64,000 nt of DNA from Xenorhabdus ishibashii (lineage in GTDB: Bacteria; Pseudomonadota; Gammaproteobacteria; Enterobacterales; Enterobacteriaceae): positions 2,232,001 to 2,296,000 of the forward strand of contig NZ_NJAK01000001.1 in the NCBI RefSeq assembly GCF_002632755.1, in the 5' to 3' direction. The stretch's first letter is position 1, and every line of letters starts with the position of its first letter. Made by a program: the position numbers and the translations under genes. The notes beneath the pieces were generated by a model that was not told the origin of the DNA, did no database searches, and saw only the letters and a program-made list of their open reading frames with translations. Positions 27,216 to 61,466 of this stretch are shown piece by piece.

Positions 27216-27280
27216 GTAAGCTGTTTGATTAATGAGTAACGGTATTGCGATCATGCTCGCAAAAGCCATAGAGGGCAAGG

Positions 27281-28442: not shown

Positions 28443-29160
28443 TGGTGAGCCTAATGGTTCATTCTTAGCTCCTCAGGGAACGCCTTATGAACAAAGAGCA
28501 CTGGCACCAGGTGCAAGAGCTGAAAAATACTATGAATATGAAGTTATAAAACCTTTACCTGTATTGCAGGGGAAAATCGCACCAGCCTTTGAACATCCGG
28601 GAGGCGGAATGCAAATTTTACCTGCTCTTGAAGAACGGGTTAACGTGCAATGGCTTATAGACAATAAATATATTAAAGAAGTTAGTACGGGATTAAAATC
28701 ACCCAAGACAGGGAAATTTGATGGGAAATCACTGCCTAATGCTGATAAAGGAGCCAAATCGGAATCCGTAGGAAAAACTACAAGCGGTGCAGAAAATGTC
28801 GCCACTTATCCTAAATTGAAAGAGGATCTTACGAAGCAAAACCTCAATCATATTGCTTCACAGGATCAGAGGTTAGAGGCTGCAATTAAGGGAAGTGGTA
28901 CAAGAAATCCTAACTTCTCTGTTGGTTCAGGAACACGGGAAGAAGCTGATCGATTAGGAAAAATATGGGTAGGTGATGGCGCTAAATTAACCACAGATGG
29001 TAAAGGTTGGGTGAGTGCTGATGGTACTCGTGTTTACCGTTTTCCCAAAGAAAAACCAAATACTCCGGCAGAGTTTACTAATACTGGTATACAGGCTAAC
29101 TTTGAAATATTAAAAGATGGTAAAAGAGTAAGTAATGGGCATATGGATGTAACAAAATGA
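28426..29160 (+). pseudogene. Polymorphic toxin tail: TNT-domain remnant fused to a CDI-type toxin domain
   Basis: 244 codons. The first 80 residues match the C-terminal part of a TNT (tuberculosis necrotizing toxin, NAD glycohydrolase) domain: YGEPNGSFLAPQGTPYEQR, then KPLPVLQGKIAPAF and PGGGMQI. The N-terminal portion with the usual DRYG Arg is replaced by the right end of IS630, and the frame opens with an ATGA overlapping the transposase stop. After a linker comes a second C-terminal domain common in CdiA/filamentous haemagglutinin toxins (YPKLKEDLTKQNLNHIASQD, SGTREEADRLGKIWVGDGA, WVSADGTRVYRF). It overlaps the Imm8 gene by four bases. The secreted carrier part is missing, so it cannot act as an exported toxin, though the second toxin domain may be intact. 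Confidence 0.75.
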
Positions 29161-36649: not shown

Positions 36650-38485
36650 GTGGAAAAAATTATATTAAGCAATGAAGAAGCATCTAGTTTGAATGTTACA
36701 GAAATGAATATTCAACAGATAAAGAACCTCTTTCCAGAAGCGTTTTCTGAAGGAGTGATCGACTTTGATACTTTAAGATCTCTTCTTTTAGAAAATGGTG
36801 CCAAAATATACGATCAAAAAGAAGAACGTTTTGGTTTTACTTGGGCAGGGAAAAGTAGAGCAAGGCAGATTGCACAAACAGTATCGAATGGAACTTTAAG
36901 ACCTTCTTTTGAGAATTTTAACTCTGATTTCTTTTCAGATAATGTCTTTGTAGAAGGCGATAATCTCGAAGTTTTAAAGTTGTTACAGAAATCATATCAT
37001 AAATCAATTAAATTGATCTATATAGATCCACCATATAACACTGGCAAAGACTTTGTATATAAAGACAATTTTCATGATAATTTAACAAATTACTTTAAGC
37101 AAACAGGTCAGTTGGATGAGTTTGGTAGAAAGTTAAGCACAAACTCTGAAACATCAGGACGCTATCACTCAGATTGGTTATCTATGATGTATCCAAGACT
37201 TAAGCTTGCGAGAAACCTTTTATCAGAAGATGGTGCAATATTTATTTCTATAGATGATGGTGAGCAAAGTAATCTTAAACAAATATGTGACGAGATATTC
37301 GGAGAAGACAACTTTGTTAATAATATAATTTGGCAGAAAAAATATTCTCCACAAAATGATGCCAAATGGTTGTCCGATAACCACGACTTCATACTCTGCT
37401 ATGCGAAAAACAAAAGTATCTGGCGACCAAATTTATTAGCTAGGACAGATAAACAAAATACGGCATACAAAAACCCTGACAATGATCCTCGTGGTGACTG
37501 GAAGTCAACTGATTTATCAGTCAAAACTTACTCTCTCAACAATGATTATGAAATAACTACGCCATCTGGACGTATTGTAACACCGCCTGAATCAAGATGT
37601 TGGAGTGTAAGTAAAGAAAAGTTTGCAGAACTTGTTGCCGACAACAGAATTTGGTTTGGGGCTTCTGGTAACAATGTCCCCTCATTAAAGAAATTTATAA
37701 CGGAAGTAAAAGATGGTGTAACACCTCTAACGCTATGGACTTATGAAGAGGTAGGGCATAATCAAACAGCCAAACAGGAGCTAAAAAAACTCTTTCCAGA
37801 TTCAAAAGAAGTATTCGATACACCAAAGCCGGTATCACTGATTAACAGAATTATCGACATTGGTTCTGACAAAGATTCAATCATTTTGGATTTCTTTGCA
37901 GGCAGTGGTACTACAGCTCATGCTGTGATGGAAAAAAATAGCAAAGATAATGGAAAAAGACGATTTATAACGGTTCAATTACCAGAACCTACAGGAAAAA
38001 GTGAGTTCAAGTTTATTTCAGATTTTACTTACGAAAGAATTTCAAGAGCAAGTAAAGCTCTTGGTTATAAAATTCCAATGAAATTTAGACTTGATTCTAC
38101 CAATATTAGAACTTGGGACGCAGACTTTGACAATCTAGAACAAGTGCTTCAACAAGCTACCAAGTCAATCAAAGATGGTCGTTCTAGCGAAGATGTTTTA
38201 TATGAAATCTTCCTAAAATATGGCTATGAATTAACCACACCAGTAAAAACTGAAACTGTGAACGGTAAAACCGTCTTTATAGTTGGTACAGGTGCTTTGA
38301 TTGTTTGCCTAGATGATGAAATCACGACTGAAACGGTAGAAGGTATCGCCAAGCTGAAAGCTGAGTTAGCCCCTGAAACGACTCAAGTAGTTTTCAAAGA
38401 TGAAGGCTTTGCTGATGATAGAGTTAAAACCAATGCTATTCAGATCTTGAAACAAGCTGGAATCGAAGATGTTAAGAGCATTTAA
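36650..38485 (+). CDS. Type III restriction-modification methyltransferase (Mod)
   Basis: 611 aa, DNA adenine N6-methyltransferase of the beta class: motif IV DPPYNTGKDF (Asp near residue 126) precedes the SAM motif I FFAGSGTTAHAV (about 413-424). The variable region between them is the target recognition domain. Mod also sets specificity for the nuclease. The GTG start at 36650 is preceded by GAGGGG. It is intact and is followed after 10 bases by res. Codon use is AT-rich compared with the core. Confidence 0.93.
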   Translation: MEKIILSNEEASSLNVTEMNIQQIKNLFPEAFSEGVIDFDTLRSLLLENGAKIYDQKEERFGFTWAGKSRARQIAQTVSNGTLRPSFENFNSDFFSDNVFVEGDNLEVLKLLQKSYHKSIKLIYIDPPYNTGKDFVYKDNFHDNLTNYFKQTGQLDEFGRKLSTNSETSGRYHSDWLSMMYPRLKLARNLLSEDGAIFISIDDGEQSNLKQICDEIFGEDNFVNNIIWQKKYSPQNDAKWLSDNHDFILCYAKNKSIWRPNLLARTDKQNTAYKNPDNDPRGDWKSTDLSVKTYSLNNDYEITTPSGRIVTPPESRCWSVSKEKFAELVADNRIWFGASGNNVPSLKKFITEVKDGVTPLTLWTYEEVGHNQTAKQELKKLFPDSKEVFDTPKPVSLINRIIDIGSDKDSIILDFFAGSGTTAHAVMEKNSKDNGKRRFITVQLPEPTGKSEFKFISDFTYERISRASKALGYKIPMKFRLDSTNIRTWDADFDNLEQVLQQATKSIKDGRSSEDVLYEIFLKYGYELTTPVKTETVNGKTVFIVGTGALIVCLDDEITTETVEGIAKLKAELAPETTQVVFKDEGFADDRVKTNAIQILKQAGIEDVKSI

Positions 38486-38495
38486 GGGATAAATT

Positions 38496-41400
38496 ATGTC
38501 TGAAATGAAGATAAAGTTTAATCCTGATCTAGCGCATCAAAAAGATGCGATTAATGCGGTAGTAGGTATATTTGAAGGACAGGAAACATTCCAATCTAAT
38601 TTTTCTGTTTCATTAAATACGCTTGCTAATGAGCAGTTAGGCTTATTCGCAAAGAACAATGATATTGGTGTTGCAAACGCTCTTACTCTTTTGCCAGAAG
38701 AATTGTACGAAAACACACGAAATGTCCAGATTATTAATGGATTATTGCAAACTGAAACATCAAAGCAAGCTCTTCCAAGTCTCGATTTCACAATTGAGAT
38801 GGAAACTGGAACGGGTAAAACCTACGTTTATCTGCGTAGCATATTTGAACTGAATCAACGTCATGGACTAACCAAGTTCATCATTGTTGTTCCTTCTGTT
38901 GCGATCAAAGAGGGTGTTTATAAATCTCTGCAAATAACAGAAGAGCATTTTAGAAAAGAGTATAAGAATGTCCAGTATGATTACTTTGTATACGACTCTT
39001 CTAAGCGTGAGCAAGTAAGAAACTTCGCAACAAATGATTATATCCAGATCATGGTAATCAACATTGACGCTTTTAGTAAGTCTTTCATTGATCCAGAGAA
39101 AGAAACTACTGCAAACTTGATTCACCGAACCGATGATCGATTGAACGGTATGAAGCCAATTGAGTTCATTCAAGCGACTAATCCAGTTGTTTTGATTGAT
39201 GAACCTCAATCCGTGGCATCTACAGCGAACCGTAAAAAAGCAATTGCTAGTTTAAACCCTCTGTGCACATTCCGTTATTCAGCAACACTGACTGAAAAGT
39301 TTAATTTACTTTATAAGCTTGATTCGATTGATGCTTATGCTCGACAGCTTGTTAAACAGATTGAAGTTGCGTCATTGGAAGTTAAAGACCATCACAATCA
39401 AGCTTATATTAAGTTGATTAGTGTCGATAACAAAAAGTCACCAATCACAGCGAAGGTTGAGATTGATGCTCAAACCAAAACGGGTAAGTTACAGCCACGT
39501 AAGACAATAACAGTTAAGAGTGGAACGGATTTATTTGAAGCTTCAGGTGGTCGCACAGTGTACGAAGGATATGTAATCAATGACATTTATTGTGAGGAAG
39601 GTAATGAATATATCGATTTTACAAGCCGTGATGACATTATCGAGCTAGGACAAGCAATCGGTGAAGTTGATCAAGACACTTACAAGCGTTTGCAAATCTC
39701 TAAAACTGTTGAAGAACATCTAGAAAAAGAACTTAAATTTTTCAAAAAAATTACTACTGGCGTTGATGTAATGGATCACTCTAAAGTGATGAGTCAGAAA
39801 GGTATCAAAGTTCTTAGCTTGTTCTTTATCGACAAAGTAGCAAACTACCGTGGCTATACAAAAGATGGTGTGCCGATCCAAGGTAAGTTTGCACAGTGGT
39901 TTGAAGAAGAGTTCATTCAACAACTTAGAAAACCAAAGTATCGTGTCTTATACCCGTCTATTTGGGATAAGGATAGTTCAGGTAAGCTGGTTTTGAATGA
40001 GCAAGCCTTAAAAGAATTGGCAAGTTCAGTTCACAATGGCTATTTTGCTCAAGACAAGAAAAAAGATGCAACAGGAAGTCCTCTTTTCGCTGAATCTAAG
40101 TTAGCGGCTAATGGTGAAGGTGGTAAAACTGCTGCTGATGAATCAGCCTATAACTTGATTATGAAAGATAAAGAGAAGCTACTTTCTATTGATGAGAAAT
40201 TACGCTTTATCTTTAGCCACTCAGCACTGAAAGAGGGTTGGGATAACCCTAACGTATTCCAGATATGCACGTTGAACGAAACCAATTCGGTAATGAAGAA
40301 ACGACAAGAGATTGGTCGTGGTTTGCGTTTAGCAGTAGATCAATCGGGTGAACGTGTTCCTTACGGCTTTGAAGTTAATACTCTTACTGTTATGGCGAAC
40401 GAATCTTACGAGCAGTTTGTATCAGAACTTCAAAAAGAAATTGAGAAAGAAGAAGGTATTAAGTTTGGTGCTATTGAAAAACATCAATTTGCTAATATCC
40501 TTATTTCTAAGGAGTTTGATAAAAAAGAGTTTCTTGGTGCTAAAAAATCAGAAGAGATCTACCAACATCTAGCCGATACAGGTTACATCGACAAGAACGG
40601 TAAGATCCAAGATTCACTTAAGGCTGATCTAGCTGATAACTCAGTGAGTCTTCCGGACAGTGTAAAAGAATACTCTGATGCAATTTTAGCAACACTCACC
40701 AAAGTGTCTAAAGGCTTGAGCATTAAGAAGCATGAAGAGAAGAAGACGGCAACTCTGCGTGAAGATAATGGTAAGCAGGTTGTTCTTGGCGATGATTTTA
40801 AGGCTCTTTGGGATCGTATTAAGTATAAAACGACTTATAGAGTAGATTTTAGCGTTGCTGAATTAGTTGAAAAATGTATCAAAGAAATTTGTGCGTCAGT
40901 CGCTGTAGCGAGTGCGAAATTTGAATACAAGAAAGTCAAAGTTGCTATAACAGAAGCGGAACTTGAAACATTTGATGAAGAGTCAAAGATTCAATACTAC
41001 CGTAATAGAAACTTCCAATTGCCTGATGTTGTGACTTATCTAGAGTCAAATACAAACCTAACGCGTAAGACCGTAGTTCAAATCTTGCTTGGCTTAGGTG
41101 ACAAACTGGAAGCGTTCAAGAATAACCCTCAACGTTTTATCGAACTGGCTAGTGAAGTGATCCGTAAACAAATGCGTCTCGCAATTGTCGATGGTATTAC
41201 TTACCACCGTATCGGTGATGAAGAGTATTATGCTCAAGAGTTGTTCCAAGAAGAAGAGCTCACGGGCTACCTCAAGAATATGGTAGGAGCAAATAAGTCT
41301 GTTTACGACTACATCATTTGTGATTCAGACACAGAGATCGAATTTGCTGAAAAACTTGAAGCATCGTCTGATGTTAAGCTTTATGCAAAACTACCTGCTT

Positions 41401-41678
41401 GGTTCAAGATTGATACCCCTCTAGGCAGTTATAACCCCGATTGGGCGGTTTTAATCGACAAAGAAGATGGTATGGATGATCAGCTCTACTTTGTAGTAGA
41501 AACGAAATCTAGTATCTTCTCCGATGATTTGAGAGCGTCTGAACAGGCAAAAATTAACTGTGGTATGGCTCACTTTGAAGCATTGTCGAAAGATAAAGAG
41601 GGTAATGCTCTTGAGAATCCTGCTAAGTTCGTCAAGGCTGATTCTTATGATACTTTCGCAACACACCTAGAAGAATAA
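38496..41678 (+). CDS. Type III restriction endonuclease subunit (Res)
   Basis: 1060 aa. The helicase part shows Walker A METGTGKT (about residues 104-111), DEPQ (Asp235, an unusual DExx variant typical of type III Res) and YSATLTEKFN. A later helicase motif EIGRGLRLAVDQ is present. The C-terminal PD-(D/E)xK nuclease is visible as YNPDWAVLI followed by YFVVETKS (about 980-1005). Together with Mod it would cleave unmethylated DNA after translocation between inversely oriented sites. The gene appears intact. Confidence 0.93.
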   Translation: MSEMKIKFNPDLAHQKDAINAVVGIFEGQETFQSNFSVSLNTLANEQLGLFAKNNDIGVANALTLLPEELYENTRNVQIINGLLQTETSKQALPSLDFTIEMETGTGKTYVYLRSIFELNQRHGLTKFIIVVPSVAIKEGVYKSLQITEEHFRKEYKNVQYDYFVYDSSKREQVRNFATNDYIQIMVINIDAFSKSFIDPEKETTANLIHRTDDRLNGMKPIEFIQATNPVVLIDEPQSVASTANRKKAIASLNPLCTFRYSATLTEKFNLLYKLDSIDAYARQLVKQIEVASLEVKDHHNQAYIKLISVDNKKSPITAKVEIDAQTKTGKLQPRKTITVKSGTDLFEASGGRTVYEGYVINDIYCEEGNEYIDFTSRDDIIELGQAIGEVDQDTYKRLQISKTVEEHLEKELKFFKKITTGVDVMDHSKVMSQKGIKVLSLFFIDKVANYRGYTKDGVPIQGKFAQWFEEEFIQQLRKPKYRVLYPSIWDKDSSGKLVLNEQALKELASSVHNGYFAQDKKKDATGSPLFAESKLAANGEGGKTAADESAYNLIMKDKEKLLSIDEKLRFIFSHSALKEGWDNPNVFQICTLNETNSVMKKRQEIGRGLRLAVDQSGERVPYGFEVNTLTVMANESYEQFVSELQKEIEKEEGIKFGAIEKHQFANILISKEFDKKEFLGAKKSEEIYQHLADTGYIDKNGKIQDSLKADLADNSVSLPDSVKEYSDAILATLTKVSKGLSIKKHEEKKTATLREDNGKQVVLGDDFKALWDRIKYKTTYRVDFSVAELVEKCIKEICASVAVASAKFEYKKVKVAITEAELETFDEESKIQYYRNRNFQLPDVVTYLESNTNLTRKTVVQILLGLGDKLEAFKNNPQRFIELASEVIRKQMRLAIVDGITYHRIGDEEYYAQELFQEEELTGYLKNMVGANKSVYDYIICDSDTEIEFAEKLEASSDVKLYAKLPAWFKIDTPLGSYNPDWAVLIDKEDGMDDQLYFVVETKSSIFSDDLRASEQAKINCGMAHFEALSKDKEGNALENPAKFVKADSYDTFATHLEE

Positions 41679-47735: not shown

Positions 47736-47758
47736 TGGTGCCCGGAGGCGGAATCGAA
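47736..47758. repeat. att repeat, left end of the tRNA-Phe island
   Basis: A 23-bp sequence starting TGGTGCCCGGAGGCGG is identical to the 3' end of the tRNA-Phe gene at 61391-61413 (same orientation). This is the pattern left by integration of a P4-like island into a tRNA 3' end. Confidence 0.9.
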
Positions 47759-50190: not shown

Positions 50191-50480
50191 TCCTGACAGG
50201 CGAGGGATCATTTTTGTAGAGAAAGATATTAACGGTCAGACAGGCGAGAGTCAAACCGTTAAGGATTCCTGCCAGCCTGATTTTTGCCTGAATTACCGTG
50301 CATATGCCGATGATCCCCCTATATTCTGCCAGCACCAGCCAAAAACTGGATTTAATTCGTTAATTAATTTGATTGATTAATGTGTAGAATAAATGTGCTT
50401 TTCTGTTCAGCTATGCATTTTATCTCGCTGAGATTCAGCATGATACTGAAGCCTAATTGATAAAACACAAGTTAAATTCA

Positions 50481-52238
50481 ATGAAAAACAACAAAGAATC
50501 GCTTTATCTAAAAGAGCGCGCTTACCTGAGAGAGCTGGCTGAGCACATCGCGAAAGAGTCACCGCATCTGGCTGAGTTTCTGGTTTCCTCTCATGACCCT
50601 GATATTGCCCGTGTTTTCGAAGCCTTTGCGTTTTTGATTGCCAATCTGCGGGACAAGCTGGAAGATAATTTTCCCGAAATTGTTCACGGCATTCTCTCCC
50701 GTATCTGGCCGTTAGCCCTGTCTCCTATTCCACCGACGACGATAGTACAATTTACGCCCACAGATGATGAACATCAGGGCACTGCCGAGATCCCGATCAG
50801 TACATCGGTGTCTGCCAGCCTTAACGGGCAGTTGATCAACTTTAAAACCTGCCGTCCTTTACATATTGAACCGTTGATTGTCCAGGAGCGCGCAGTCAGG
50901 AAAACCGGCACTCACAGTGAAATTATTCTGACCCTGTGCCAGACCGGCACGGCATCCCCGGTCTGGCAAAGTGGCGCATTAACTTTTTTCCTTGGCACTG
51001 ACACCGAAAAGGCCGCCCAGCTCAGTCTGTGGCTGGATCAACATATTTGTGAGGTCAGCCTGAACACGCAGGGCAAGCAGCGAAAGCTGCGCGGTTTTCC
51101 TTATGGCTGGCATGATCTGCTTGATAGTCCGGTACTGCCTGTGCCCAAAAATACGTATTCCGGTCTGCAACCGTTGGTGGAATATTATGCACTATCCCAA
51201 CTGTATAACTTTGTCACGCTGGATATCAGCAGCAGTTGCGCAAAAGTCCCGCTGAATGACGATGGCACGTTTGAGCTGATTTTGCGTTTCGGGGGCGAAT
51301 TGCCACTGGAGGATGTCGAGGGGGCATTTTTGTTGGGTTGTGTGCCGGCGATCCATCTGGAAAACCAGGCCAGCCCGCCTGTCCGGTTGGAAGCCGGTAA
51401 TCACCGCTATCCGCTGCCATTGGGGGGATCGGTGTGCTTGTACCGGCTGCGGGAGGTTCAGGTGGTGGTACAGCCCGAAGACAGGGAGCAGCGTGGCACG
51501 CCTTATCACTGGCTGCCGATTGAGCAGTTTGTTCCCGCAGGGCGTTTTTTCGATGATGATGCACAGCCCGACACGTTTTACTACCAGCTCCAGACCGAGC
51601 AGGATTTTCTGGGCAGGATCCAACATCGGCTGTGTTTTTTTGATTTGACCGGTAAACCGGCAAACAACTTACCTGCCATTGAGGTTTCGTGTTATTTCAC
51701 TGGCTACCATGAACAGGCGCTGGGATTAACGCAAGATACTATTACCGTGACGCAAGAAAATTCGCCGTCTCATCTCAGCGTCCACAATATCACGCCGGTC
51801 ACCACTGATTATCCGCCATTGTTACAGGAAAATAACGGCTGGCCGCTGCTTTCCTGTCTTTCCAGCCCACCGATGATGCTGTTTGCCACCGACAGCCTGA
51901 AACAGTTTCTCCGGTTGTTTGACCCGTATGCTGACACGCATCGCCCCTTGAGCCGTCAGTTCCAGCAACACATTGACGGCATTGTACAGGTGGAAGAGCG
52001 TCTGACTGACCGGATGCGGCGGGGGCGCCCCATTCGCGGGCATTTACTCTCACTGACGCTGAACCCTGATTGTTATCGTAATCAGGGAGAAATGTATCGC
52101 TTCTGCCGGTTAATCAATCAGGCACTGGCTTGTTTTATCACCCAATCTTCGTTTGTCATGCTGGAGATTTTCACCCCTGACAGTCACAAGGGGCTATGGC
52201 AGTTCTGGCATGTCGATGGGTTACGCCCGGCCATGTAA
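50481..52238 (+). CDS. tssF: T6SS baseplate subunit TssF (VasA/ImpG)
   Basis: 585 aa. The N-terminus LYLKERAYLRELAEHIAKES and the following FAFLIANLRDKLEDNFPEIV, SRIWPLALSPIPPTTIVQF are the TssF/VasA signature. TssF forms the wedge of the T6SS baseplate with TssG, TssE and TssK. The C-terminus (GEMYRFCRLINQALACFITQ) is also family-like and the length is complete. None of the other structural tss genes is near, so it is an orphan next to vgrG. The ATG at 50481 is used; an in-frame TTG at 50457 exists. Confidence 0.9.
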   Translation: MKNNKESLYLKERAYLRELAEHIAKESPHLAEFLVSSHDPDIARVFEAFAFLIANLRDKLEDNFPEIVHGILSRIWPLALSPIPPTTIVQFTPTDDEHQGTAEIPISTSVSASLNGQLINFKTCRPLHIEPLIVQERAVRKTGTHSEIILTLCQTGTASPVWQSGALTFFLGTDTEKAAQLSLWLDQHICEVSLNTQGKQRKLRGFPYGWHDLLDSPVLPVPKNTYSGLQPLVEYYALSQLYNFVTLDISSSCAKVPLNDDGTFELILRFGGELPLEDVEGAFLLGCVPAIHLENQASPPVRLEAGNHRYPLPLGGSVCLYRLREVQVVVQPEDREQRGTPYHWLPIEQFVPAGRFFDDDAQPDTFYYQLQTEQDFLGRIQHRLCFFDLTGKPANNLPAIEVSCYFTGYHEQALGLTQDTITVTQENSPSHLSVHNITPVTTDYPPLLQENNGWPLLSCLSSPPMMLFATDSLKQFLRLFDPYADTHRPLSRQFQQHIDGIVQVEERLTDRMRRGRPIRGHLLSLTLNPDCYRNQGEMYRFCRLINQALACFITQSSFVMLEIFTPDSHKGLWQFWHVDGLRPAM

Positions 52239-52282: not shown

Positions 52283-54289
52283 ATGAAAAGTGGATTACGC
52301 TTTGTCTGCCACATCGCCGGTGTGCCGGAAGACACTTTTGCTGTGGGGGAGTTTTCCCTGCAAGAGGGATTATCCGAACTCTTTACCCTGAACATGACAC
52401 TGGTCAGAACGGGCAACCCGAATCCGTTTAAACCACAGGCAGAGATTGATTTGGCCTCGCTGCTGATGCAGGAAGCGGTACTGCAAATCTTTCACGGGGC
52501 AACCGAGCAGCGCAAAATCACCGGCATCACCTCCCATGCGGACTGGGTGGGCACCGATGGTAATAAGACAATCTATTCCGTCACCGTCCGCCCTGCCTGC
52601 TGGCGGCTGACGCTCAATCAGGACAGCCGAATTTATCATCAGCAAAATGTGCCGGCCATTTTAAACAGCCTGCTGAAAAAACATCGGGTGAAAGCCGATT
52701 CGAAGCTCTACGATGTGCATCAGGAGCGGGAATATGTGACCCAGAAACGGGAATCCGATTATGCATTTTTCAGCCGGTTAGCCGCGGAAGAAGGTATCAG
52801 TTTCTGGTTTGAGGATGATACGCTGTTTTTCAGTGACAGCCATCTGGGTATGACCGCTGGCTTACCGCTGCAATACCAGCCCCAGCCGGAAACCGCGCAT
52901 GGGGTAGATACGATTTATCAGGTACGGTTAGGCGTCGGCATGAGTCCGCAGCGCAGCCTGCACAAAGATTTCAACCCCGAAAACCCGCGCTATCACCTCT
53001 CCCATATGCACAGCAGCGAAGGTTTCCGCGATTTTGGTAGCCAGACCCCCTATACCGTGTTTGAAAGTTACGGGCGTTTTCAGAAAGATGCCGCCGCCAT
53101 CCCATTTTTAAAATACCGGCAGGAAGCGCTGGACAACCAGAAACAGACCGGCAGCGGTAGCAGTAACTGCATCAAACTGATGCCGGGCAAAATTTTCGAG
53201 ATAAAAAATCATCCCCATAAACTGCTTAATGTTCGCTGGCAGGTGGTCGGTATCAGCCATCACGGTCGCTGCCCGCAGGCATTGGGAAATGATGCCGGTG
53301 AAGGCACCACGCTTTCCAACCAGTTCAGTTTTATTTCCGGTCTGGATGATTATCGTCCGCCTTTCCACTACAAGCCTCTGGCAGATGGCGATGAAACTGC
53401 CATCGTGGTCGGTCCGGAAGGTGAGGAAATCTTCGTTAATAAAGACGGGGCGATTAAAGTCCATTTTCACTGGAACCGCTATGACCCACCGGATGATGGT
53501 GCCTCGTGCTGGGTGCGCGTAGCTCAGGGCTGGAATGGTAACGGCTTTGGTTTTATGGCGATACCCCGTATCGGGCAGGAAGTGATTATCTCTTACCTGA
53601 ACGGCGATATCGACCGCCCCATCGTCACCGGCTGTGTCTATAACGGCCTGAACCGCCCACCACTGGATTTGCCGGCTCAAAAAACTCGTACCACGTTTAA
53701 AACCAAAACCCACAAAGGCAAAGGCTTTAACGAACTGCGCTTTGAGGATGCGAAAGACAGCGAAGAAATCTATCTCCACGGCCAGAAAGATCTGACTGCC
53801 CATATCGAAAACGATTCCTACTGGCATATCAAACATGACCAGAAGAGCCGCATCGATAACAACCGTTACCACGATATCCGCGCCGATGACCATCATCAGG
53901 TCGCCGGTTCGCGCAAAATCACCACCGAAGGGGATGTCTCCCACCGGATTGCCGGCAGCCAGCATATCCAGACCGGCGACGCGACTGTGATTGACAGCGG
54001 ACAGGAAATCCACCTGAAAAGTGGCGGCAAGGTCGTACTGGAAGCGGCAGCCGAAATCACGCTGAAAGTGGGTGGCAGTTTTCTCAAAGTCACACCGGGC
54101 GGCATTCTCTGCTCACCGATTAATGTTGGACAAGGTTCAGGCGGCAGCGGGCGCGGGGTTTCACTGCAATTACCGGAGGGGGTGGAGCCATTGCCGATGG
54201 TGGAATTTCCGGTCAAAAAATATTGTGCATTGCAGGCTCAGGAGAATGCAGCCTGGGTGATTAAATCCCCGCAGGGAGGTCAGTCATGA
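52283..54289 (+). CDS. vgrG: T6SS spike protein VgrG (TssI)
   Basis: 668 aa. A gp27-like N-terminal half (residues about 1-380; EGLSELFTLNMTLV, KKHRVKADSKLYDVHQEREY, AEEGISFWFEDDTL), a gp5 OB-fold with WVRVAQGWNGNGFGFMAIPR, IGQEVIISYLNGDIDRPIVT, and a beta-helix needle (ENDSYWHIKHDQKSRI, LKSGGKVVLEAAAEITLK). The tail past about residue 620 is short and carries no extra enzymatic domain. It overlaps the DUF4123 gene by four bases, as expected for a VgrG loaded through an adaptor. Confidence 0.95.
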   Translation: MKSGLRFVCHIAGVPEDTFAVGEFSLQEGLSELFTLNMTLVRTGNPNPFKPQAEIDLASLLMQEAVLQIFHGATEQRKITGITSHADWVGTDGNKTIYSVTVRPACWRLTLNQDSRIYHQQNVPAILNSLLKKHRVKADSKLYDVHQEREYVTQKRESDYAFFSRLAAEEGISFWFEDDTLFFSDSHLGMTAGLPLQYQPQPETAHGVDTIYQVRLGVGMSPQRSLHKDFNPENPRYHLSHMHSSEGFRDFGSQTPYTVFESYGRFQKDAAAIPFLKYRQEALDNQKQTGSGSSNCIKLMPGKIFEIKNHPHKLLNVRWQVVGISHHGRCPQALGNDAGEGTTLSNQFSFISGLDDYRPPFHYKPLADGDETAIVVGPEGEEIFVNKDGAIKVHFHWNRYDPPDDGASCWVRVAQGWNGNGFGFMAIPRIGQEVIISYLNGDIDRPIVTGCVYNGLNRPPLDLPAQKTRTTFKTKTHKGKGFNELRFEDAKDSEEIYLHGQKDLTAHIENDSYWHIKHDQKSRIDNNRYHDIRADDHHQVAGSRKITTEGDVSHRIAGSQHIQTGDATVIDSGQEIHLKSGGKVVLEAAAEITLKVGGSFLKVTPGGILCSPINVGQGSGGSGRGVSLQLPEGVEPLPMVEFPVKKYCALQAQENAAWVIKSPQGGQS

Positions 54290-55071
54290 CTGATTCTACC
54301 CAAAAAACAAGCTGGGCAACCTGGCTGGGCGGATCTGACAAATCGCCAGTTTACCTGATGATCAACCCGCTTTCGGTGCCTAATCCTGTCAACACGCTCT
54401 ATGTGAACAACTGGGTTGAACAGGCTTTCCCCCTGTATAGCGGTACATCGCTTGCTCACCTGATGGAGCAGGGACCGTGGCTTATTCAGCCGAAAATGGA
54501 CTGTCTGTCCACGTTTGCTCGTCTGCTCGACCACCGCGCGTTCAGTGACGGCAGTTGGGGCTGGGCATACCGTAGCGATACGGGCTGGCAGGCACAACTG
54601 GATCACTGGCAACGTCACCAGCTCGTGACCCTGCGGGATGAACAGGTCGTCTTCCGGCTCATGGATACGCGTATTCTGCGGGTATTGATGCCCGCGATGC
54701 AGCCGACAGACTGGACATCTCTGCTTAACCCGGTCACTGAGCTGATGGTGGATATGCCTGAACCGACGGTTTTTCTTCGACCGACACAATGCCCGTTCAG
54801 CCAGATTGAACGCCCTTTTGTACTGGAGCCGCACCTGATTGCCGCGTGGGAACAGTCCGATTTTGCACTGGAAGGACTCGCAAAAACGCTGATGTATGAA
54901 CTGTGGGAAGCACAGGGCGAACTGGCACTGAAGCGGGATACTCCCGAAGGTACTTTGATCCGTGACCTTGAAAAATGGCTGCGTCAGCACCGCCAACAGG
55001 GTTCACGTTTACAGGCGCTGACCCTCCATGACTTTCTGGCAGGAAGCGAGATTGATGCACAACGTACTTAA
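54286..55071 (+). CDS. DUF4123 T6SS adaptor/chaperone
   Basis: 261 aa, DUF4123 family. Such proteins (Tap/Tec type) load a particular effector onto its VgrG and are not secreted. Recognisable parts are YLMINPLSVPN near the start, CLSTFARLLDHRAFSDGSWG, HWQRHQLVTLRDEQVVFRLM and DTRILRVLMPAMQ. It lies between vgrG and the effector, 20 bases before the latter, so it most likely serves that effector. Confidence 0.88.
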   Translation: MTDSTQKTSWATWLGGSDKSPVYLMINPLSVPNPVNTLYVNNWVEQAFPLYSGTSLAHLMEQGPWLIQPKMDCLSTFARLLDHRAFSDGSWGWAYRSDTGWQAQLDHWQRHQLVTLRDEQVVFRLMDTRILRVLMPAMQPTDWTSLLNPVTELMVDMPEPTVFLRPTQCPFSQIERPFVLEPHLIAAWEQSDFALEGLAKTLMYELWEAQGELALKRDTPEGTLIRDLEKWLRQHRQQGSRLQALTLHDFLAGSEIDAQRT

Positions 55072-55091: not shown

Positions 55092-56906
55092 ATGAGTGAC
55101 ACAGGAAGATTAGATTGTGTTCCCTGCAATACATTCAAACACTGGCTGGAATTTCAGTTATTGGATAGTCAGGGCAAGCCATTAATCGGTATTCCCTATC
55201 ACCTGAAAAGCCGGGATGGGGTGATCAAGGCCAATGGCGTGACGAATGGTCAGGGGGTTCTGCGGGAAGAAAATTTATCGCCGTTGCCCATGACCCTGCA
55301 TGTGAATGCGCAGAAACTGGCCGACCAATTGGTTGAAAAACATTCTGTTGCAGCGGTGAAAAATGAAAAAGCATCGGGTTCCTCCCCCGCGATTATGCCG
55401 GGCGAACTCAGTGATGGACTGCCGAAGATCGAAGGCTGGACAGAAGAAGCCCTGCAAACAAAATATTACACTGACCGCGAATATCCGGGCATCACGGTGA
55501 TACCCGAACATAACCGCCGGCATGTGATAGCCGTCGAACGTATTGTGAAACCAGTATTTGCAAAATCCTGCCTGCAACCTTTGGGTTGCACCGATGCGGG
55601 TACAGAAACCGAGCCCGCAGCCAATTTTGGTCAATTGCAGGTTTACCTGCCAGCACCCACATCGCAGGCACCCGCAACGGCTTCTGCGGCGCAGGATAAA
55701 AACACGCCGCCATGGTATATGGTGCCGATAGGATGGCTGCTTGATCAAGTGGTGCCACCGGCACAAGCCCATCCGCTGGTGTTTCAGGCAATGGAAACGC
55801 AGATGGCATTGGGTGCGGCAGTGGGTACGGCGAGTAATAACGATGGATCATGGGAAACCGAAAGCGCTCCGCCACTGATTTCTGAGAAAGAGAAGCTGTT
55901 CATGGCCGCCATTGTCTCTTCCACACCGACGGACCGGGCACAGTTAGCCTGGGGGGCTCTGAAACGGGCATTTGGCGCTGACAGTGACACGGCTCAACAC
56001 CAGCTCGAAAGACTGAAACAACTGGCTGATCAAAAAGGCCGTGCAGAGACCCGTGTTCGCTATCGTTTTGTGGAGGATGAGAAGAGCGGAAAAGTGAAGG
56101 TGGTTGGTTACCATACCCGCGAAGGAAGTGGTATGGATACGGTTAAAGTGCGTCACGTGAAGCAAACCGCACCGGGAACATACGAATTTCGGGAGGATGG
56201 CGCGGATTCGCCTATACTGGTCTGGTACACTAACGCGTCGTCAATGTATAAGGCATTATCACCGCAGGAATTACCTCAATATTTTAACCAGCGTGGTACG
56301 CCAATCAATGTCAACACTGTGCCGCTTGATGATCCGAGCATGACCGGTCAAACACCCGGCCTGGAAATCCCAGAGCAGCCAACGTGGCGGGACGGTGTGA
56401 TGGGTAACCCGCAGCAAGATCCGAATGAAATGGCGGGGAACAAAACAGAAACGCCAATATCGGATGGAACAGACCGCGGGCCAACGAAGACGACTACACC
56501 GGTACAGGAGAGTGATTTCCGAGATTATATTCTGATTTTCCCGATTGAGGGCGTGCCGGCGGTTTATGTTTATTTGAGTAAAATTGAAGAGCTTGATTCA
56601 GATAAGTATACTCGTCGCCAATTAGATCGAAAGTTCAAACATGCAAAAGATTTTGGTATTGACAGTACAAGAAAAAATAAAGAAACATTAACTCAGTTTA
56701 GGGATGCCATTGAAGAACATTTGAACGATGCTGAAACTTTCGAAAAAGGAACATATTTGTTAGAAAATGGCAGTAAAGTTTTTTTTAATACTAAAACAAA
56801 TAATGTTGTAGTAATAGGGAATGATGGAATGTTCTTATCCTGTTGGAAATTAAGTCCAGGAACTGCACAATATGAAAATTATATTGAAAAGGATACCTTA
56901 AGATGA
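55092..56906 (+). CDS. T6SS effector with S-type pyocin and colicin D-type tRNase domains
   Basis: 604 aa. N-terminal domain (about 1-90, FKHWLEFQLLDSQGKPLIGI) of the type found in VgrG-linked cargo. A middle Ala/Pro-rich region follows, then an S-type pyocin-like domain (about 310-400: RVRYRFVEDEKSGKVKVVGY, SPILVWYTNA), a linker, and a C-terminal domain (about 505-604) matching colicin D: LDRKFKHAKDFGIDSTRKNK, FRDAIEEHLNDAETFEKGTY, VFFNTKTNNVVVIGNDGMFL. Colicin D cleaves the anticodon loop of tRNA-Arg, and its catalytic His corresponds to His517 here (FKHA). The DNA turns AT-rich from about 56540, just where the toxin domain begins, a sign of C-terminal module exchange. It has no receptor-binding or translocation domain, so delivery by the T6SS is inferred from the operon. 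Confidence 0.88.
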   Translation: MSDTGRLDCVPCNTFKHWLEFQLLDSQGKPLIGIPYHLKSRDGVIKANGVTNGQGVLREENLSPLPMTLHVNAQKLADQLVEKHSVAAVKNEKASGSSPAIMPGELSDGLPKIEGWTEEALQTKYYTDREYPGITVIPEHNRRHVIAVERIVKPVFAKSCLQPLGCTDAGTETEPAANFGQLQVYLPAPTSQAPATASAAQDKNTPPWYMVPIGWLLDQVVPPAQAHPLVFQAMETQMALGAAVGTASNNDGSWETESAPPLISEKEKLFMAAIVSSTPTDRAQLAWGALKRAFGADSDTAQHQLERLKQLADQKGRAETRVRYRFVEDEKSGKVKVVGYHTREGSGMDTVKVRHVKQTAPGTYEFREDGADSPILVWYTNASSMYKALSPQELPQYFNQRGTPINVNTVPLDDPSMTGQTPGLEIPEQPTWRDGVMGNPQQDPNEMAGNKTETPISDGTDRGPTKTTTPVQESDFRDYILIFPIEGVPAVYVYLSKIEELDSDKYTRRQLDRKFKHAKDFGIDSTRKNKETLTQFRDAIEEHLNDAETFEKGTYLLENGSKVFFNTKTNNVVVIGNDGMFLSCWKLSPGTAQYENYIEKDTLR

Positions 56907-57175
56907 GTTTAAAATTGATTAACCTTGCTAAATATTTTTGTGCTCATGACATTGATGCTGATGAGTTTACAGATAGATACATTTCTTTATGGATGGATGA
57001 AAGAGATAATAATCAATTAGTAATTGATGGCAAAAAAGTTGATGAGGTTAGCTCTTCAATATTTTGTTTTGCAGATATGTATAATCCTGATTCAGATAGA
57101 AGACCTTCTGAATTTGATGAAAATGAGTTAAGACTGAAGGTTAAATCTATTTTGCATAAATATAATCTTGATTAA
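56903..57175 (+). CDS. Colicin D-type immunity protein
   Basis: 90 aa, acidic. LINLAKYFCAHDIDADEFTD, FCFADMYNPDSDRRPSEFDE and LRLKVKSILHKYNLD align with ImmD, the colicin D immunity protein (Colicin_immun family), which occupies the tRNase active site. It overlaps the effector by four bases (ATGA) and shares its AT-rich composition. Confidence 0.9.
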   Translation: MSLKLINLAKYFCAHDIDADEFTDRYISLWMDERDNNQLVIDGKKVDEVSSSIFCFADMYNPDSDRRPSEFDENELRLKVKSILHKYNLD

Positions 57176-57203
57176 ATAACACCTGACGCGCTGCGCTTGT
57201 CAT

Positions 57204-57245
57204 CTCCGTGCTACCGGGCTAATACATTAACCCGGTAGCACGGAG
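57204..57245 (+). terminator. Hairpin after the immunity gene
   Basis: CTCCGTGCTACCGGG and CCCGGTAGCACGGAG form a perfect 15-bp stem with a 12-base loop. There is no T-run, so it may end the effector operon by Rho or stabilise its mRNA. Confidence 0.45.
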
Positions 57246-57277
57246 AGCTAGAAAAATACCTGCCAGAAAAAATATTT

Positions 57278-57395
57278 CCTCACCTGCTCCTCATTTTTCT
57301 CCTCACTTTTTCCATATATATGCGAAAAAAGTGAGGAAAACGGTGAGCAGTAAAATCCCTCTCCTCACCGCTCCTCACTTTATGACTCACTTTTT
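57278..57395. other. Candidate iteron-type origin region
   Basis: A 118-base stretch with at least seven copies of a CCTCAC/CTCCTCAC motif on either strand (near 57278, 57288, 57299, 57329 inverted, 57343 inverted, 57361, 57370, 57384), each usually followed by a T-run. An AT-rich palindromic core CCATATATATGCG is in the middle. It lies directly after the primase-helicase gene, as origins or crr sites do in P4-like elements. Assignment is inference. Confidence 0.4.
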
Positions 57396-59499
57396 AATCT
57401 TCATTATTCTGGTTAACAATGCTAAGTTCCTGTCCATTGCGGATAATCAATCTCTCTTGCTCTAACTTGGTCAACCAGCGGCTGAAATTCTTCACATTCA
57501 CGCCCATAGATTTTAAATCATCACGGACAAGGGCAATGCTGCAATGCTCTTTTAAGGCGGTACGAGACCGGATGCACTGCCACAATACTGTATGATTATC
57601 GGTCTTATTGGAAACATGATCGATTTCTTCCTCCTCAACCGGATCACGTGGTCTGTCAATCAGCGCCAATGACGTAATATCCTCACCATCTTTATCGGTA
57701 AAAAGTTCAACTACGCGCATGTCATAAGCTTTGGTTTCCGGTTCTTCGGCATCTTTCATTTTGGTGCAGGTGATAACCAACGCACCGCCTCTTTTCCCTT
57801 CCCGGTTGATCCGATATTCAACATCCAGCGCCGCACGAAAGGCACTGGAACCTCTTGCGCCTTTGCTTTCATCCTTGCCGGAATGGTGAACCACGAGAAT
57901 GCTTGCGCCTGTTTTAGCTTTCAGCTCGTCACAACCCCGGACAAACGCGCCCATATCTTTTGAATCATTTTCATCAGCGCCGCCAAAACAGCGGGCTAAG
58001 GTGTCCAGAATAATCAGGCGTACCGGTTCGCCTGTTTCAGACTCAACTTGTTGGGCGGCAATCACCAGTTCATGCACTTCGGCAGGCGAGGCCGGAAAAA
58101 CCGGCGTATTAATCAGATACATACTTTCAACTGCCTGACCGTTGACGATTTCCCATGCTTTGATGCGCCGGGGCACACCAATCCCGCCTTCGCCGACAAC
58201 GTACAGCACAGAACCCTGAGCAACCTGTTTACCTGCCCATGGCTTACCCGTGGCAATATGACAACCCCATGCGCCTGCCAGAAAACTTTTATATGACCCG
58301 CTAGCTCCGTAAATGCTGCATAAGGAATGTGCTGGAATAATACCTTTAACAACATAGTCCAACTGAGCGTCAAATCCTTCTGAGCCAACGGATAGGGGTA
58401 ATTTTGTCTTACGCTTTGGATAAAGCGTTTCTACATTGTGATAATTGTGGTTTTCTGTTGCGTGACTGTTCATTGATTTCCCCACTTGATACAAATATTT
58501 ACTGAATGCCTGCTTTGCTGCCTCATTACCATGATGCTGACGATAATCGTCCCAGTCGGCTTTATGCTTTGTAGGCGGTAATGTGACCCAACCATTCACC
58601 GCAAGGGCAGCTTTTTCTGCTGAGATCTTGCCGACATTCACTTTGGGTTTGCCGTTTTTATCCAGTTCGTCAGGATGATGCCAGTCATTATCTGCGGCAA
58701 TAATGATTTTGGTGTCCGGCCAGCGTTCCCGAATGGATTTGGCAACAGAAGATAAATTGCCCTCATCCAGCGCCGCCAGAACAGTGCCTTTATAGAGCTG
58801 GCTAACCGTGAGTGCTGTGGCGTAACCTTCGGTGATAATTACCGTCTCCGGATGCTCTTCCAGCACTGTCAAGGGAATAAACGCGCCTTTTTTCTGGCTG
58901 CCGGGGAAGAATTTTTTCTCGCCATTGGGTTTAATGATCTGCGCACCGGTGACTTTTTTATCCAGAGTTGTCAGTGCCAACACTGTCGAATTATCAAACA
59001 GTAGCCGCTGATCAAGATGTTGCAGACCCTTTGTAGCCAGATAGGGTGATTGCCCGGCGACAGTTTGCGCCATCAGTGCCGCCACTCTTTCGGCAATCGG
59101 TTGTGTTGGACAATGGGTTTCTTTGGCTGGCTTGGGAGCTGGCAAAGGTAGTGCCAGTACGTTAGCGACAACTTTTGCCGCCTCAATAACAGAGATCCCG
59201 TTGGTTCTTGCCACCAAATCAAGCCCATCACCATAGTTCGGGGTATCACACTGGCGGCAATGCCAGTTGCCATGATGGTGATCATCGATAAAGTGAAAAT
59301 GGTCAGTACCACCGCAAATAGGGCAAGCGCCATGTTTTCCCTTTACGGGGATATCAATACCACAAGCGGGCAACAGATTTTGCCAGGAATACATAGCTGA
59401 GGTTTTGACGGTTTGGATAAGATCAAGCGGTTTTTGGCTGCCTGATGTTTTTTGAACTGTAAATTTGGGGCGAGTTTGGGTATGCTGTGTATCAGCCAT
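57394..59499 (-). CDS. P4-like primase-helicase
   Basis: 701 aa. Zinc-binding domain with CPIC (Cys59, Cys62) and CRQC (Cys81, Cys84), as in P4 alpha-type primases. A Toprim domain follows (about 210-300: VIITEGYATALTVSQLY, AALDEGNLSSVAKS, IIIAADND). The C-terminal AAA_25/RepA-like ATPase shows GASGSYKSFLAG (Walker A), VVGEGGIGVPRR, LIILDTLARCFGG (Walker B) and VVHHSGKDESKGARGSSAFR. A short winged-helix-like tail ends the protein. It likely replicates the excised island. It ends in the last repeat of the candidate origin. Confidence 0.88.
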   Translation of the reverse strand: MADTQHTQTRPKFTVQKTSGSQKPLDLIQTVKTSAMYSWQNLLPACGIDIPVKGKHGACPICGGTDHFHFIDDHHHGNWHCRQCDTPNYGDGLDLVARTNGISVIEAAKVVANVLALPLPAPKPAKETHCPTQPIAERVAALMAQTVAGQSPYLATKGLQHLDQRLLFDNSTVLALTTLDKKVTGAQIIKPNGEKKFFPGSQKKGAFIPLTVLEEHPETVIITEGYATALTVSQLYKGTVLAALDEGNLSSVAKSIRERWPDTKIIIAADNDWHHPDELDKNGKPKVNVGKISAEKAALAVNGWVTLPPTKHKADWDDYRQHHGNEAAKQAFSKYLYQVGKSMNSHATENHNYHNVETLYPKRKTKLPLSVGSEGFDAQLDYVVKGIIPAHSLCSIYGASGSYKSFLAGAWGCHIATGKPWAGKQVAQGSVLYVVGEGGIGVPRRIKAWEIVNGQAVESMYLINTPVFPASPAEVHELVIAAQQVESETGEPVRLIILDTLARCFGGADENDSKDMGAFVRGCDELKAKTGASILVVHHSGKDESKGARGSSAFRAALDVEYRINREGKRGGALVITCTKMKDAEEPETKAYDMRVVELFTDKDGEDITSLALIDRPRDPVEEEEIDHVSNKTDNHTVLWQCIRSRTALKEHCSIALVRDDLKSMGVNVKNFSRWLTKLEQERLIIRNGQELSIVNQNNED

Positions 59500-59607: not shown

Positions 59608-59814
59608 TTATGCCGCCCGTGATTCTGCGATACGCTGGGCGATCCAGTCATCAATCTCTGATTCAGTAAAAGCCACTGAACGTGGGCCGATTTTGACCTG
59701 CTGCGGGAATTCTCCGTCGCTAATCAGTTTGTAGATCCATGCTTTGCTGTAACTCGTTCTGCGTTGCACTTCTGGCAAACGAATCAGGCTTGTTTTCAAT
59801 GCTGCCATTGTCAT
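59608..59814 (-). CDS. AlpA-family transcriptional regulator
   Basis: 68 aa MerR-like wHTH of the AlpA/Phage_AlpA family: SLIRLPEVQRRTSYSKAWIY, LISDGEFPQQVKIGPRSVAF, SEIDDWIAQRI. AlpA-type proteins activate island excision and replication genes. The start at 59814 follows GGAGAAG. It sits between the integrase and primase genes. Confidence 0.9.
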   Translation of the reverse strand: MTMAALKTSLIRLPEVQRRTSYSKAWIYKLISDGEFPQQVKIGPRSVAFTESEIDDWIAQRIAESRAA

Positions 59815-59953
59815 GTCACTTCTCCTGTTACCCAGTCCCTGAAATGTCATCGTGGACGTTGTTTGATGACAGGCGGATTATTTAAAAAGCAAGACTTAAT
59901 GAACAGCGTTAATTGTTTTTCTTCCGATGAAAATTAACGGGTTGCAAATTGTA

Positions 59954-61225
59954 CTAGCGGTTTTTCCTGTCACGCAGCGGTTTGGCGAAGTCATAGGGTG
60001 TGATTGGCTTTTCCCTGTTCGCATCCAGATAATCCGCCCACCACTGCACCATCAGCCGCCGTTCATCCAGATGTTTGGATGTATGAATATACGCCGCCCG
60101 GACGTTGTTTCGTTCGATATGGCTTAACTGACGCTCGATGGCGTCATCGCTCCACAGGCCGGATTCGCCCATTGCACCGCGCGCCATTGTGCGGAAGCCA
60201 TGCCCGCAGATATCGGTTTGGGTGTCGTAGCCCATATTGCGTAACGCACTATTGACGGTGTTTTCACTCATGACTTTCGCGGAATTATGATCGCTTGGGA
60301 ACATCACTTCGCAGTTACCACTTAGTACGTGCAATTCTTTGAATAACGAGACTGCTTGACGGCTCAGGGGCACAATATGCTCCGTTTTCATTTTCATGCC
60401 GCGCTCAGAAAAGCGAACGCCTTTGATGGGTTTTCGTGTAGCGGGAATTTTCCAGACCGCGTTTTCAAGGTCGATTTCCTGCCAGCGGGCAAATCTCAGC
60501 TCACTGGAGCGGACAAACGTCAGCAGCGCCAGTTCTACCGCGATTTTGGTCAGTAAGCGCCCGCGATAGGAAGATAAGCGGGCTAAAAAGTCAGGCAAGT
60601 CTTCATGGGGTAGTGCGGGATGGTGACGGGATTTTGTGGTGGTGAGTGCGCCGGCCATGTCGTTAGCAGGGTTTGTTTCCAGAATATCGTTCTGGACGGC
60701 ATAGCGCATGATAGCGGTGATACGCTGGCGTAGCCGTTGTGCTATATCGTGTTTGCCCTGTTCATCAATGGCTTTGACGGGGGCTAAAAGCTGGCTGGTG
60801 CGTAACGTGGTAATATCGCGTGCGCCGATATGCGGGAAAATAGACTGCTCAAGGCTGCGCAGCACTGTTTGGCTATGTCTGTCACTCCAGCGTTTGTTAC
60901 TGGCGTGCCATGCGCGGGCGACTTCTTCAAACGAGTTCACTTTGGCAGGCGTTGGGGTGCCTTTCTTTTCGGCTTTGGGATCGATGCCCTGAGCCATCAG
61001 CTTTTTGGCCTCATCGCGTTTAGCGCGGGCATCGGCTAATGATACAGCGGGATAAACACCGAATGCCAGTCGGTCTTCTTTCTTATCGGTCGGACGATAA
61101 TATTTCATCCGCCAGTACTTCGAGCCGCGAGCAGTGACTTCTAAATAGAGACCGCCGCCATCGGCAAGTTTGTAGGTTTTTTCTTTGGGCTTTGCAGTTT
61201 CGATTTGCCGAGCGTTTAGTTTCAT
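59954..61225 (-). CDS. P4-type integrase of the tRNA-Phe island
   Basis: 423 aa. It starts MKLNARQIETAKPKEKTYKL with the DUF4102 arm-binding domain (LADGGGLYLEV), then a core-binding domain and a C-terminal catalytic domain: TFVRSSELRFARWQEI (Arg), ICGHGFRTMARGAM (HxxR), LSHIERNNVRAAYI (His, Tyr). Such integrases insert elements into tRNA 3' ends; the adjacent tRNA-Phe and the 23-bp repeats agree. ATG at 61237 (four residues longer) is an alternative; the frame further up to 61435 overlaps the tRNA and is not used. Confidence 0.92.
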   Translation of the reverse strand: MKLNARQIETAKPKEKTYKLADGGGLYLEVTARGSKYWRMKYYRPTDKKEDRLAFGVYPAVSLADARAKRDEAKKLMAQGIDPKAEKKGTPTPAKVNSFEEVARAWHASNKRWSDRHSQTVLRSLEQSIFPHIGARDITTLRTSQLLAPVKAIDEQGKHDIAQRLRQRITAIMRYAVQNDILETNPANDMAGALTTTKSRHHPALPHEDLPDFLARLSSYRGRLLTKIAVELALLTFVRSSELRFARWQEIDLENAVWKIPATRKPIKGVRFSERGMKMKTEHIVPLSRQAVSLFKELHVLSGNCEVMFPSDHNSAKVMSENTVNSALRNMGYDTQTDICGHGFRTMARGAMGESGLWSDDAIERQLSHIERNNVRAAYIHTSKHLDERRLMVQWWADYLDANREKPITPYDFAKPLRDRKNR

Positions 61226-61390
61226 TATTAAGGGCATCCTTGTAATCGAACGGTAAGTGCCCCGAATTATGCCCTTCGCTGCATCTTGATTGCAACAGAC
61301 GAAACTAGACCTAAAAATAAGAATGGATGTTGATTTTGCAGGATTTGCTAAGAATTGTTTGACTGGGCTGGACTTCACTGGAAGTTGAAG

Positions 61391-61413
61391 TGGTGCCCGG
61401 AGGCGGAATCGAA
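61391..61413. repeat. att repeat, right end (in tRNA-Phe)
   Basis: Identical over 23 bp to 47736-47758, mismatching at the next base on both sides. It spans the CCA end, acceptor strand and T-arm of the tRNA. Confidence 0.9.
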
Positions 61414-61466
61414 CCACCGACACGGGGATTTTCAATCCCCTGCTCTACCGACTGAGCTATCCGGGC
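61391..61466 (-). tRNA. tRNA-Phe (anticodon GAA)
   Basis: Minus-strand 76-nt tRNA: GCCCGGATAGCTCAGTCGGT at the 5' end, anticodon loop in GGGGATTGAAAATCCCC with GAA, T-loop GGTTCGATTCC, and an encoded CCA end. Its 3' 23 bases are the right att site of the island. The T-stem (GGTGG/CCGCC) contains one T-G pair and differs from E. coli, consistent with replacement of the 3' end by island-borne sequence. Confidence 0.96.

Follow-up and report, generated by a model that had tools for sequence, protein, structure and literature searches.

A gene cassette of the insect-associated bacterium Xenorhabdus ishibashii is best explained as encoding an effector-immunity pair, the effector being a polymorphic T6SS cargo protein with a colicin D-type tRNase tail, an interpretation that we hold with high confidence. 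The cassette lies in the 64,000-nucleotide stretch of DNA analysed here (the window), which belongs to a 3.86 Mb genome in 5 contigs, and its genes follow one another in an operon-like order: a tssF-like gene (50457..52238 (+); T6SS_TssF, E 4.9e-68), a full-length vgrG gene for the T6SS spike (52283..54289 (+); TIGR03361, 538 bits for a cut-off of 186), a DUF4123 adaptor gene, of a kind also named Tap/TEC (54286..55071 (+); PF13503, E 2.8e-17), the effector gene (55092..56906 (+), 604 aa) and an ImmD-type immunity gene (56903..57175 (+), 90 aa). The last two share an ATGA, a 4-bp overlap at the effector stop codon, and are followed by a strong inverted repeat (57203..57246 (+), with 21-nt arms that are 95% complementary) that is a possible transcription terminator. 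The ORFs bear out the first-pass annotation of this DNA in its limits for the pair (55092..57175), in its placing of the effector behind vgrG and DUF4123 genes, and in the overlap of an ImmD-like gene with the end of the effector gene.

The C-terminal tail of the effector (aa 497-604; 56580..56903 (+)) is a colicin D-type nuclease, as had been claimed from the sequence. Profile searches returned all three of the expected families, namely Colicin_D (PF11429) at effector aa 510-594 (E 5.4e-12; 46.4 bits, cut-off 25), Pyocin_S (PF06958) at effector aa 309-442 (E 5.6e-22; 79.2 bits, cut-off 22.5) and Colicin_immun (PF09204) at aa 1-86 of the 90-aa protein (E 1.9e-21). Among PDB chains, the effector matched colicin D (5znm_A, E 8.8e-39; 1v74_A, E 1e-34), with 59 of 101 tail residues identical in the 5znm/1v74-search alignment. 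The histidine of the FKHA motif, previously singled out as catalytic, is His517 and aligns with colicin D His611, for whose role the accessible part of PMC9990079 is the source. Besides H611 (H517), colicin D K608 (K514), K610 (K516), D614 (D520), S677 (S583) and W679 (W585) are kept, and K607 corresponds to Arg513; four of the five active residues named as essential in the available text of PMC3482391 (K607, K608, H611, D614 and S677) are thus identical in the tail. A model of the last 109 residues (37 aligned sequences) has a mean pLDDT of 94.2, and the PDB structure search, which used this tail model only, placed it at an rmsd of 0.6-0.7 Å from 5znm, 1v74, 1tfo and 1tfk, a fit that leaves His517 at the nuclease site; the next match after the colicin D chains was a CDI toxin (8ey4_A, TM 0.53). 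The full-length effector model is too poor (mean pLDDT 38.9) for the fold of the N-terminal part to be read from it.

Colicin D itself cuts tRNA-Arg in the anticodon loop, between 38 and 39, and the tail probably cuts tRNA-Arg too. Belonging to this family does not by itself settle where the tail cuts, as the accessible part of PMC9990079 describes Colicin_D-family CDI toxins as acceptor-stem cutters. These toxins, the replacement of K607 by Arg and the 42 of 101 tail residues unlike colicin D are what speaks for the alternative that the tRNase of the T6SS effector has a different target or cut site, for instance the acceptor stem. We consider this unlikely, as the six other site residues checked are all kept, the tail falls with colicin D on the bacteriocin side of the trees described below, away from the CDI/Rhs tails, and its model is much closer to colicin D than to 8ey4_A by the values given above.

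The 90-aa gene likely encodes the antidote to this putative tRNA-Arg nuclease. Its product matches the ImmD chain 1tfk_B (E 4.7e-8), at only 33% identity to ImmD; in an alignment of 19 it comes closest to an unpaired ImmD-like ORF of Serratia inhibens (L061, 58%) and to another in genome G162 (L104, 57%). Genome G222 (L102:3639-5526) has one Colicin_D gene followed by five ImmD-like genes in a row, and in another Xenorhabdus (G397, L110:5465-8317) an interrupted Colicin_D ends an 821-aa ORF and is followed by an ImmD-like ORF.

Delivery by a T6SS is the best inference for the effector, since its N-terminal family is found behind DUF4123 genes and with other toxins. Relatives of the effector occur in 22 of 30 Xenorhabdus genomes, 12 of these 22 matching by the N-terminal part only, and the best 30 loci contain 28 ORFs with the N-terminal part (25 distinct, the window's own included). 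Among the 23 distinct N-terminal ORFs of these loci with at least 600 bp of upstream sequence, 21 (the window's included) directly follow a DUF4123 ORF and 20 share their locus with VgrG, the ORFs of L033 and L046 having neither. A sister cassette in the same genome joins the N-terminal family (39% identical) to a Lipase_3 toxin, with a PAAR gene next in line. From these comparisons, the N-terminal part seems to serve for delivery whichever warhead it carries, and aa 1 to about 155 (55092..55556 (+)) are its probable T6SS loading part, given the DUF4123 gene upstream in relatives. As for the secretion machinery, the genome gives two VipB and two TssG matches: the C1 cluster, at about 1.90 Mb, has VipA, VipB, gp25, TssF, VasE, DotU, a ClpB-like AAA protein, Hcp and VasL/ImpA, and the C2 cluster has VipB and TssG, the two genes looked for.

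The same observations bear on whether the gene could instead encode a free S-type bacteriocin that lysis would release and an outer-membrane receptor would import, the T6SS genes being its neighbours by chance. Pyocin_S together with Colicin_D is indeed the architecture of bacteriocin-like proteins from Serratia and Pseudomonas, but aa 1-300 have no Pfam receptor or Cloacin-type match (E up to 1; an undescribed domain is possible there), and the N-terminal family occurs behind DUF4123/VgrG and bears a lipase in the sister cassette. We reject a free bacteriocin, to which we leave a very slim chance, on the ground that the family of the N-terminus is linked to DUF4123.

Within the effector, the first-pass annotation correctly saw an S-type pyocin-like domain ahead of the nuclease (Pyocin_S, 56016..56417 (+)) and held that receptor-binding and translocation regions were absent. 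The latter stands for the outer-membrane parts, for which aa 1-300 gave no match, and fails for the inner membrane, since Pyocin_S is described in the accessible part of PMC9040868 as an inner-membrane translocation domain. This part of the effector is a translocation module common to bacteriocin and T6SS systems. A DPY-like motif (defined as D-X4-FP-X8-Y in the available text of PMC5536347) is present at aa 478-494, where D478, F483 and P484 fit and the tyrosine stands at X7 (Y492) or X9 (Y494), not at X8; R323, D478, P484 and Y492 are invariant in 24 aligned proteins, 4 of them bacteriocin-like.

The sequence shows that nuclease and immunity protein form an exchangeable low-GC module, attached at codon 496 to a conserved delivery part, immediately past the DPY region of Pyocin_S. 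In twelve Xenorhabdus relatives, picked from the 119 proteins of the protein search, the match to the effector extends as far as YVYL(S/N) (aa 492-496), and its tail after aa 496 is found in none of the 12; one protein, P0001 from X. taiwanensis, is 98% identical across 82% of the effector. The GC content falls from 52.3% ahead of codon 497 to 30.3% in the tail, and the immunity gene has 27.8%. In the same genome, two broken copies of the effector gene lie next to the C1 T6SS cluster (L025); their DNA is 99.4% identical to it over 815 and 466 bp, the identity stopping in both cases at 56578/56579 of the window, and each copy runs into a different tail and small ORF. The same tail module, with the same junction, is found in X. 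beddingii DSM 4764 (L094:6656-7123) as an orphan that comes after a different effector and small ORF; unlike the window gene it is a truncated remnant, with 28 of 28 residues identical from aa 496, and it matches the window at 41 of 57 bases before the junction, 79 of 82 after it and 28 of 99 beyond the truncation. CDI systems have orphan toxin modules, and the X. beddingii layout resembles them. Polymorphic toxins are marked by a conserved N-terminus, by toxin modules that vary at the C-terminus and by orphan modules, and this family has all three.

It is possible, although we lean against it, that the end of the Pyocin_S domain, made up of the DPY region and the YVYLS codons after it, is a shared recombination socket by which free bacteriocins and T6SS effectors exchange nuclease-immunity modules. 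The window gene would then be a natural colicin D-T6SS chimera and the first demonstrated case of an anticodon nuclease fired by a T6SS, and the same inner-membrane step would serve the bacteriocin and T6SS routes.

Judging from the phylogenetic trees, the nuclease clusters with proteins of the bacteriocin-like kind and not with CDI/Rhs toxins. A 47-row tree unites the window tail with all 20 Pyocin_S-labelled tails (100/98, the bootstrap not being settled), with three further rows inside this group and the CDI and Rhs tails apart. Its labels are for L015, L017 and L070 given without a Pfam scan, for P0120-P0123 taken from precomputed domains and for five of the ten CDI tails (L082, L087, L089, L090 and L016) taken from ORF length or the look of the sequence. 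A 38-row tree including colicin D puts the window tail on the same side, colicin D being inside the group, with weaker support (90/77), and flags the window tail for unusual letter make-up. A constraint that put the window tail into one clade together with six others (five FHA/PT-VENN and one Rhs) was rejected (p-AU 3.8e-7), which is weak support since these six are themselves not one clade. A CDI/Rhs origin of the tail is not supported by the 47-row tree. Both trees, along with the break in identity and GC at codon 496, back the suggestion of the first-pass annotation that a warhead has putatively moved from a bacteriocin to a contractile machine.

Scanning one genome per species for the tail gave 40 relatives, and the X. 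beddingii remnant is the only one of them with VgrG and DUF4123 in its flanks. The 30 relatives examined with Pfam comprise 13 with Colicin_D and Pyocin_S, 5 of the haemagglutinin/PT-VENN type, 1 Rhs, 1 Mu-F and 10 with nothing recognised. A protein search with the tail region gave 4 proteins from 74 candidates, none of which has PAAR, VgrG or Hcp in the Pfam column. Colicin_D is uncommon: the family sample has it in 15 of 392 genomes and the class sample in 7 of 369 (own genome included), and the five further Xenorhabdus genomes listed for the family sample gave no match; a control of the profile on 14 named genomes gave one match, in Methanosarcina acetivorans. No VgrG or DUF4123 was found across the 19 loci of the neighbour survey, where neighbours were sought with single-sequence phmmer references (VgrG, DUF4123, Hcp and PAAR) within the flanks, so that distant T6SS genes could escape. 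The family sample has 16 Colicin_D places, one of which is the window itself, and 11 were examined with larger flanks; of the remaining four, L014, L018 and L020 sit on contigs equal in length to those of L067, L089 and L093, which the neighbour search covered, and L016 is a 3.2-kb locus outside that search. The class sample has seven places outside the own genome, in six genomes (L111-L117), with flanks of about 1.5 kb or less.

In the mechanism that we propose, the DUF4123 adaptor would load the N-terminal domain onto the co-encoded VgrG, and a T6SS encoded elsewhere in the genome would fire the loaded effector. Once in the prey periplasm, Pyocin_S may help the tail to cross the inner membrane, by analogy with pyocin G and colicin D. 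The freed tail would then cut tRNA through its catalytic residue His517, the most likely site being the anticodon loop of tRNA-Arg isoacceptors, and translation would presumably stop as a result. The ImmD-type protein would protect the producer by occupying the tRNA-binding cleft, as expected from the ImmD family.

Several known systems share parts of this arrangement. The colicin D/ImmD system of E. coli (1v74, 1tfk, 1tfo, 5znm) has a similar nuclease domain, active site and ImmD-type immunity, whereas the window effector is without a recognised outer-membrane receptor part and lies in a VgrG-DUF4123 operon. The nearest nucleases, 63-64% identical and in the same domain order, are those of the Serratia and Pseudomonas Pyocin_S and Colicin_D proteins (L061, L058, P0120-P0123), whose N-termini are other than that of the window effector; L058 and L061 have an ImmD-like ORF behind them, as does the window effector, but unlike it no VgrG or DUF4123 was found in their flanks. 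Two T6SS effectors also resemble the window effector according to the accessible parts of their reports: VPA1263 of Vibrio parahaemolyticus (PMC9602870) has Pyocin_S before a bacteriocin-type nuclease, but with a MIX/LysM N-terminus and an HNH DNase where the window tail is of the tRNase type, and YPK_0952 of Yersinia pseudotuberculosis (PMC11237486) is a pyocin-like effector with an immunity protein, but a DNase. CdiA-CT EC3006 and Kp342 are, like the window tail, tRNases of the Colicin_D (PF11429) family, but in the available text of PMC9990079 they are delivered by CDI and described as cutting the acceptor stem, unlike our reading of the window tail. The trees were built from sequences other than these two, and further CDI-type tails stand on a separate branch in the 47-row tree.

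Anticodon nucleases are well known in colicins, as are tRNases in CDI. Colicin_D was already listed in T6SS effectors in 2022 (accessible part of PMC9040868), so the general combination is not new. The accessible part of a 2023 review table of nucleic-acid toxins (PMC9990079) has no tRNase in its T6SS rows, and the Tox-Colicin D entry in the available text of a 2012 survey (PMC3482391) gives T2SS, T5SS, cloacin, TcdB/TcaC, PVC and MuF, not T6SS; the open-licence literature, searched in part, yielded no tested T6SS colicin D effector. In the window, a colicin D-type catalytic domain stands behind a spike and near-identical sister proteins bear other warheads. The sharp socket and these sisters make it a useful test case, as matched sister pairs could probe the need for Pyocin_S in the inner-membrane passage of T6SS effectors, a question that PMC9040868, in its accessible part, leaves open.

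The cassette sits on a 13.7-kb stretch between two identical 23-bp direct repeats, a left att-like repeat (47736..47758) and a right one (61391..61413) that is the 3' end of a tRNA-Phe gene (61391-61466 (-)). Between them are also genes for a Toprim/AAA primase-helicase (57394..59499 (-)), an AlpA-type regulator (59608..59850 (-)) and a tyrosine integrase (59954..61435 (-)), the true start of the last being probably further in, since the first-start ORF overlaps the tRNA. An integrase, an AlpA protein and a Toprim/AAA primase between repeats make an integrated island most likely. Such an island could also be moving a decayed or silent cassette, its gene non-working like the broken copies at C1:1.92 Mb, and the low GC content of the tail would suit that; but the vgrG, DUF4123, effector and immunity ORFs are open with near full-length family matches and the catalytic residues are intact, which makes decay rather improbable, and we retain a working T6SS effector cassette as our reading.

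Beside the C1 T6SS cluster, the vgrG gene (L025:2567-10443, C1:1.92 Mb) is without its first 193 residues, and the cassette pieces after it are interrupted by deletions and by ORFs that, by their look, are presumably transposase-like. Given this truncated vgrG and the broken pieces, the island copies may supply a working spike. The tssF-like gene that comes first in the repeated tssF-vgrG-DUF4123-effector cassette scores 251.5 bits with the NCBIfam profile, under the cut-off of 260.3, and sits outside the two main T6SS clusters of the genome. Further copies precede vgrG at C1:134790 (98%) and C1:2673598 (94%, aa 60-593), with a remnant at C1:1920560 and a distant tssF-vgrG pair at C1:803876 (loci L118, L119, L025 and L120), and no tssF-like gene was seen in the X. 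beddingii locus L094. Each such spike would have a private baseplate gene; a tssF outside both complete T6SS loci is also described for X. griffiniae in the accessible part of PMC11566119.

Other genes of note in the window are an ORF with a TNT (tuberculosis necrotizing toxin) domain (28426-29160 (+), E 5.4e-26), perhaps a second polymorphic toxin, a type III restriction-modification-like pair with N6_N4 methylase and ResIII/RE_endonuc (36650-41678 (+)), and a gene for an HNH_2 endonuclease-like protein (26343-27278 (-)).
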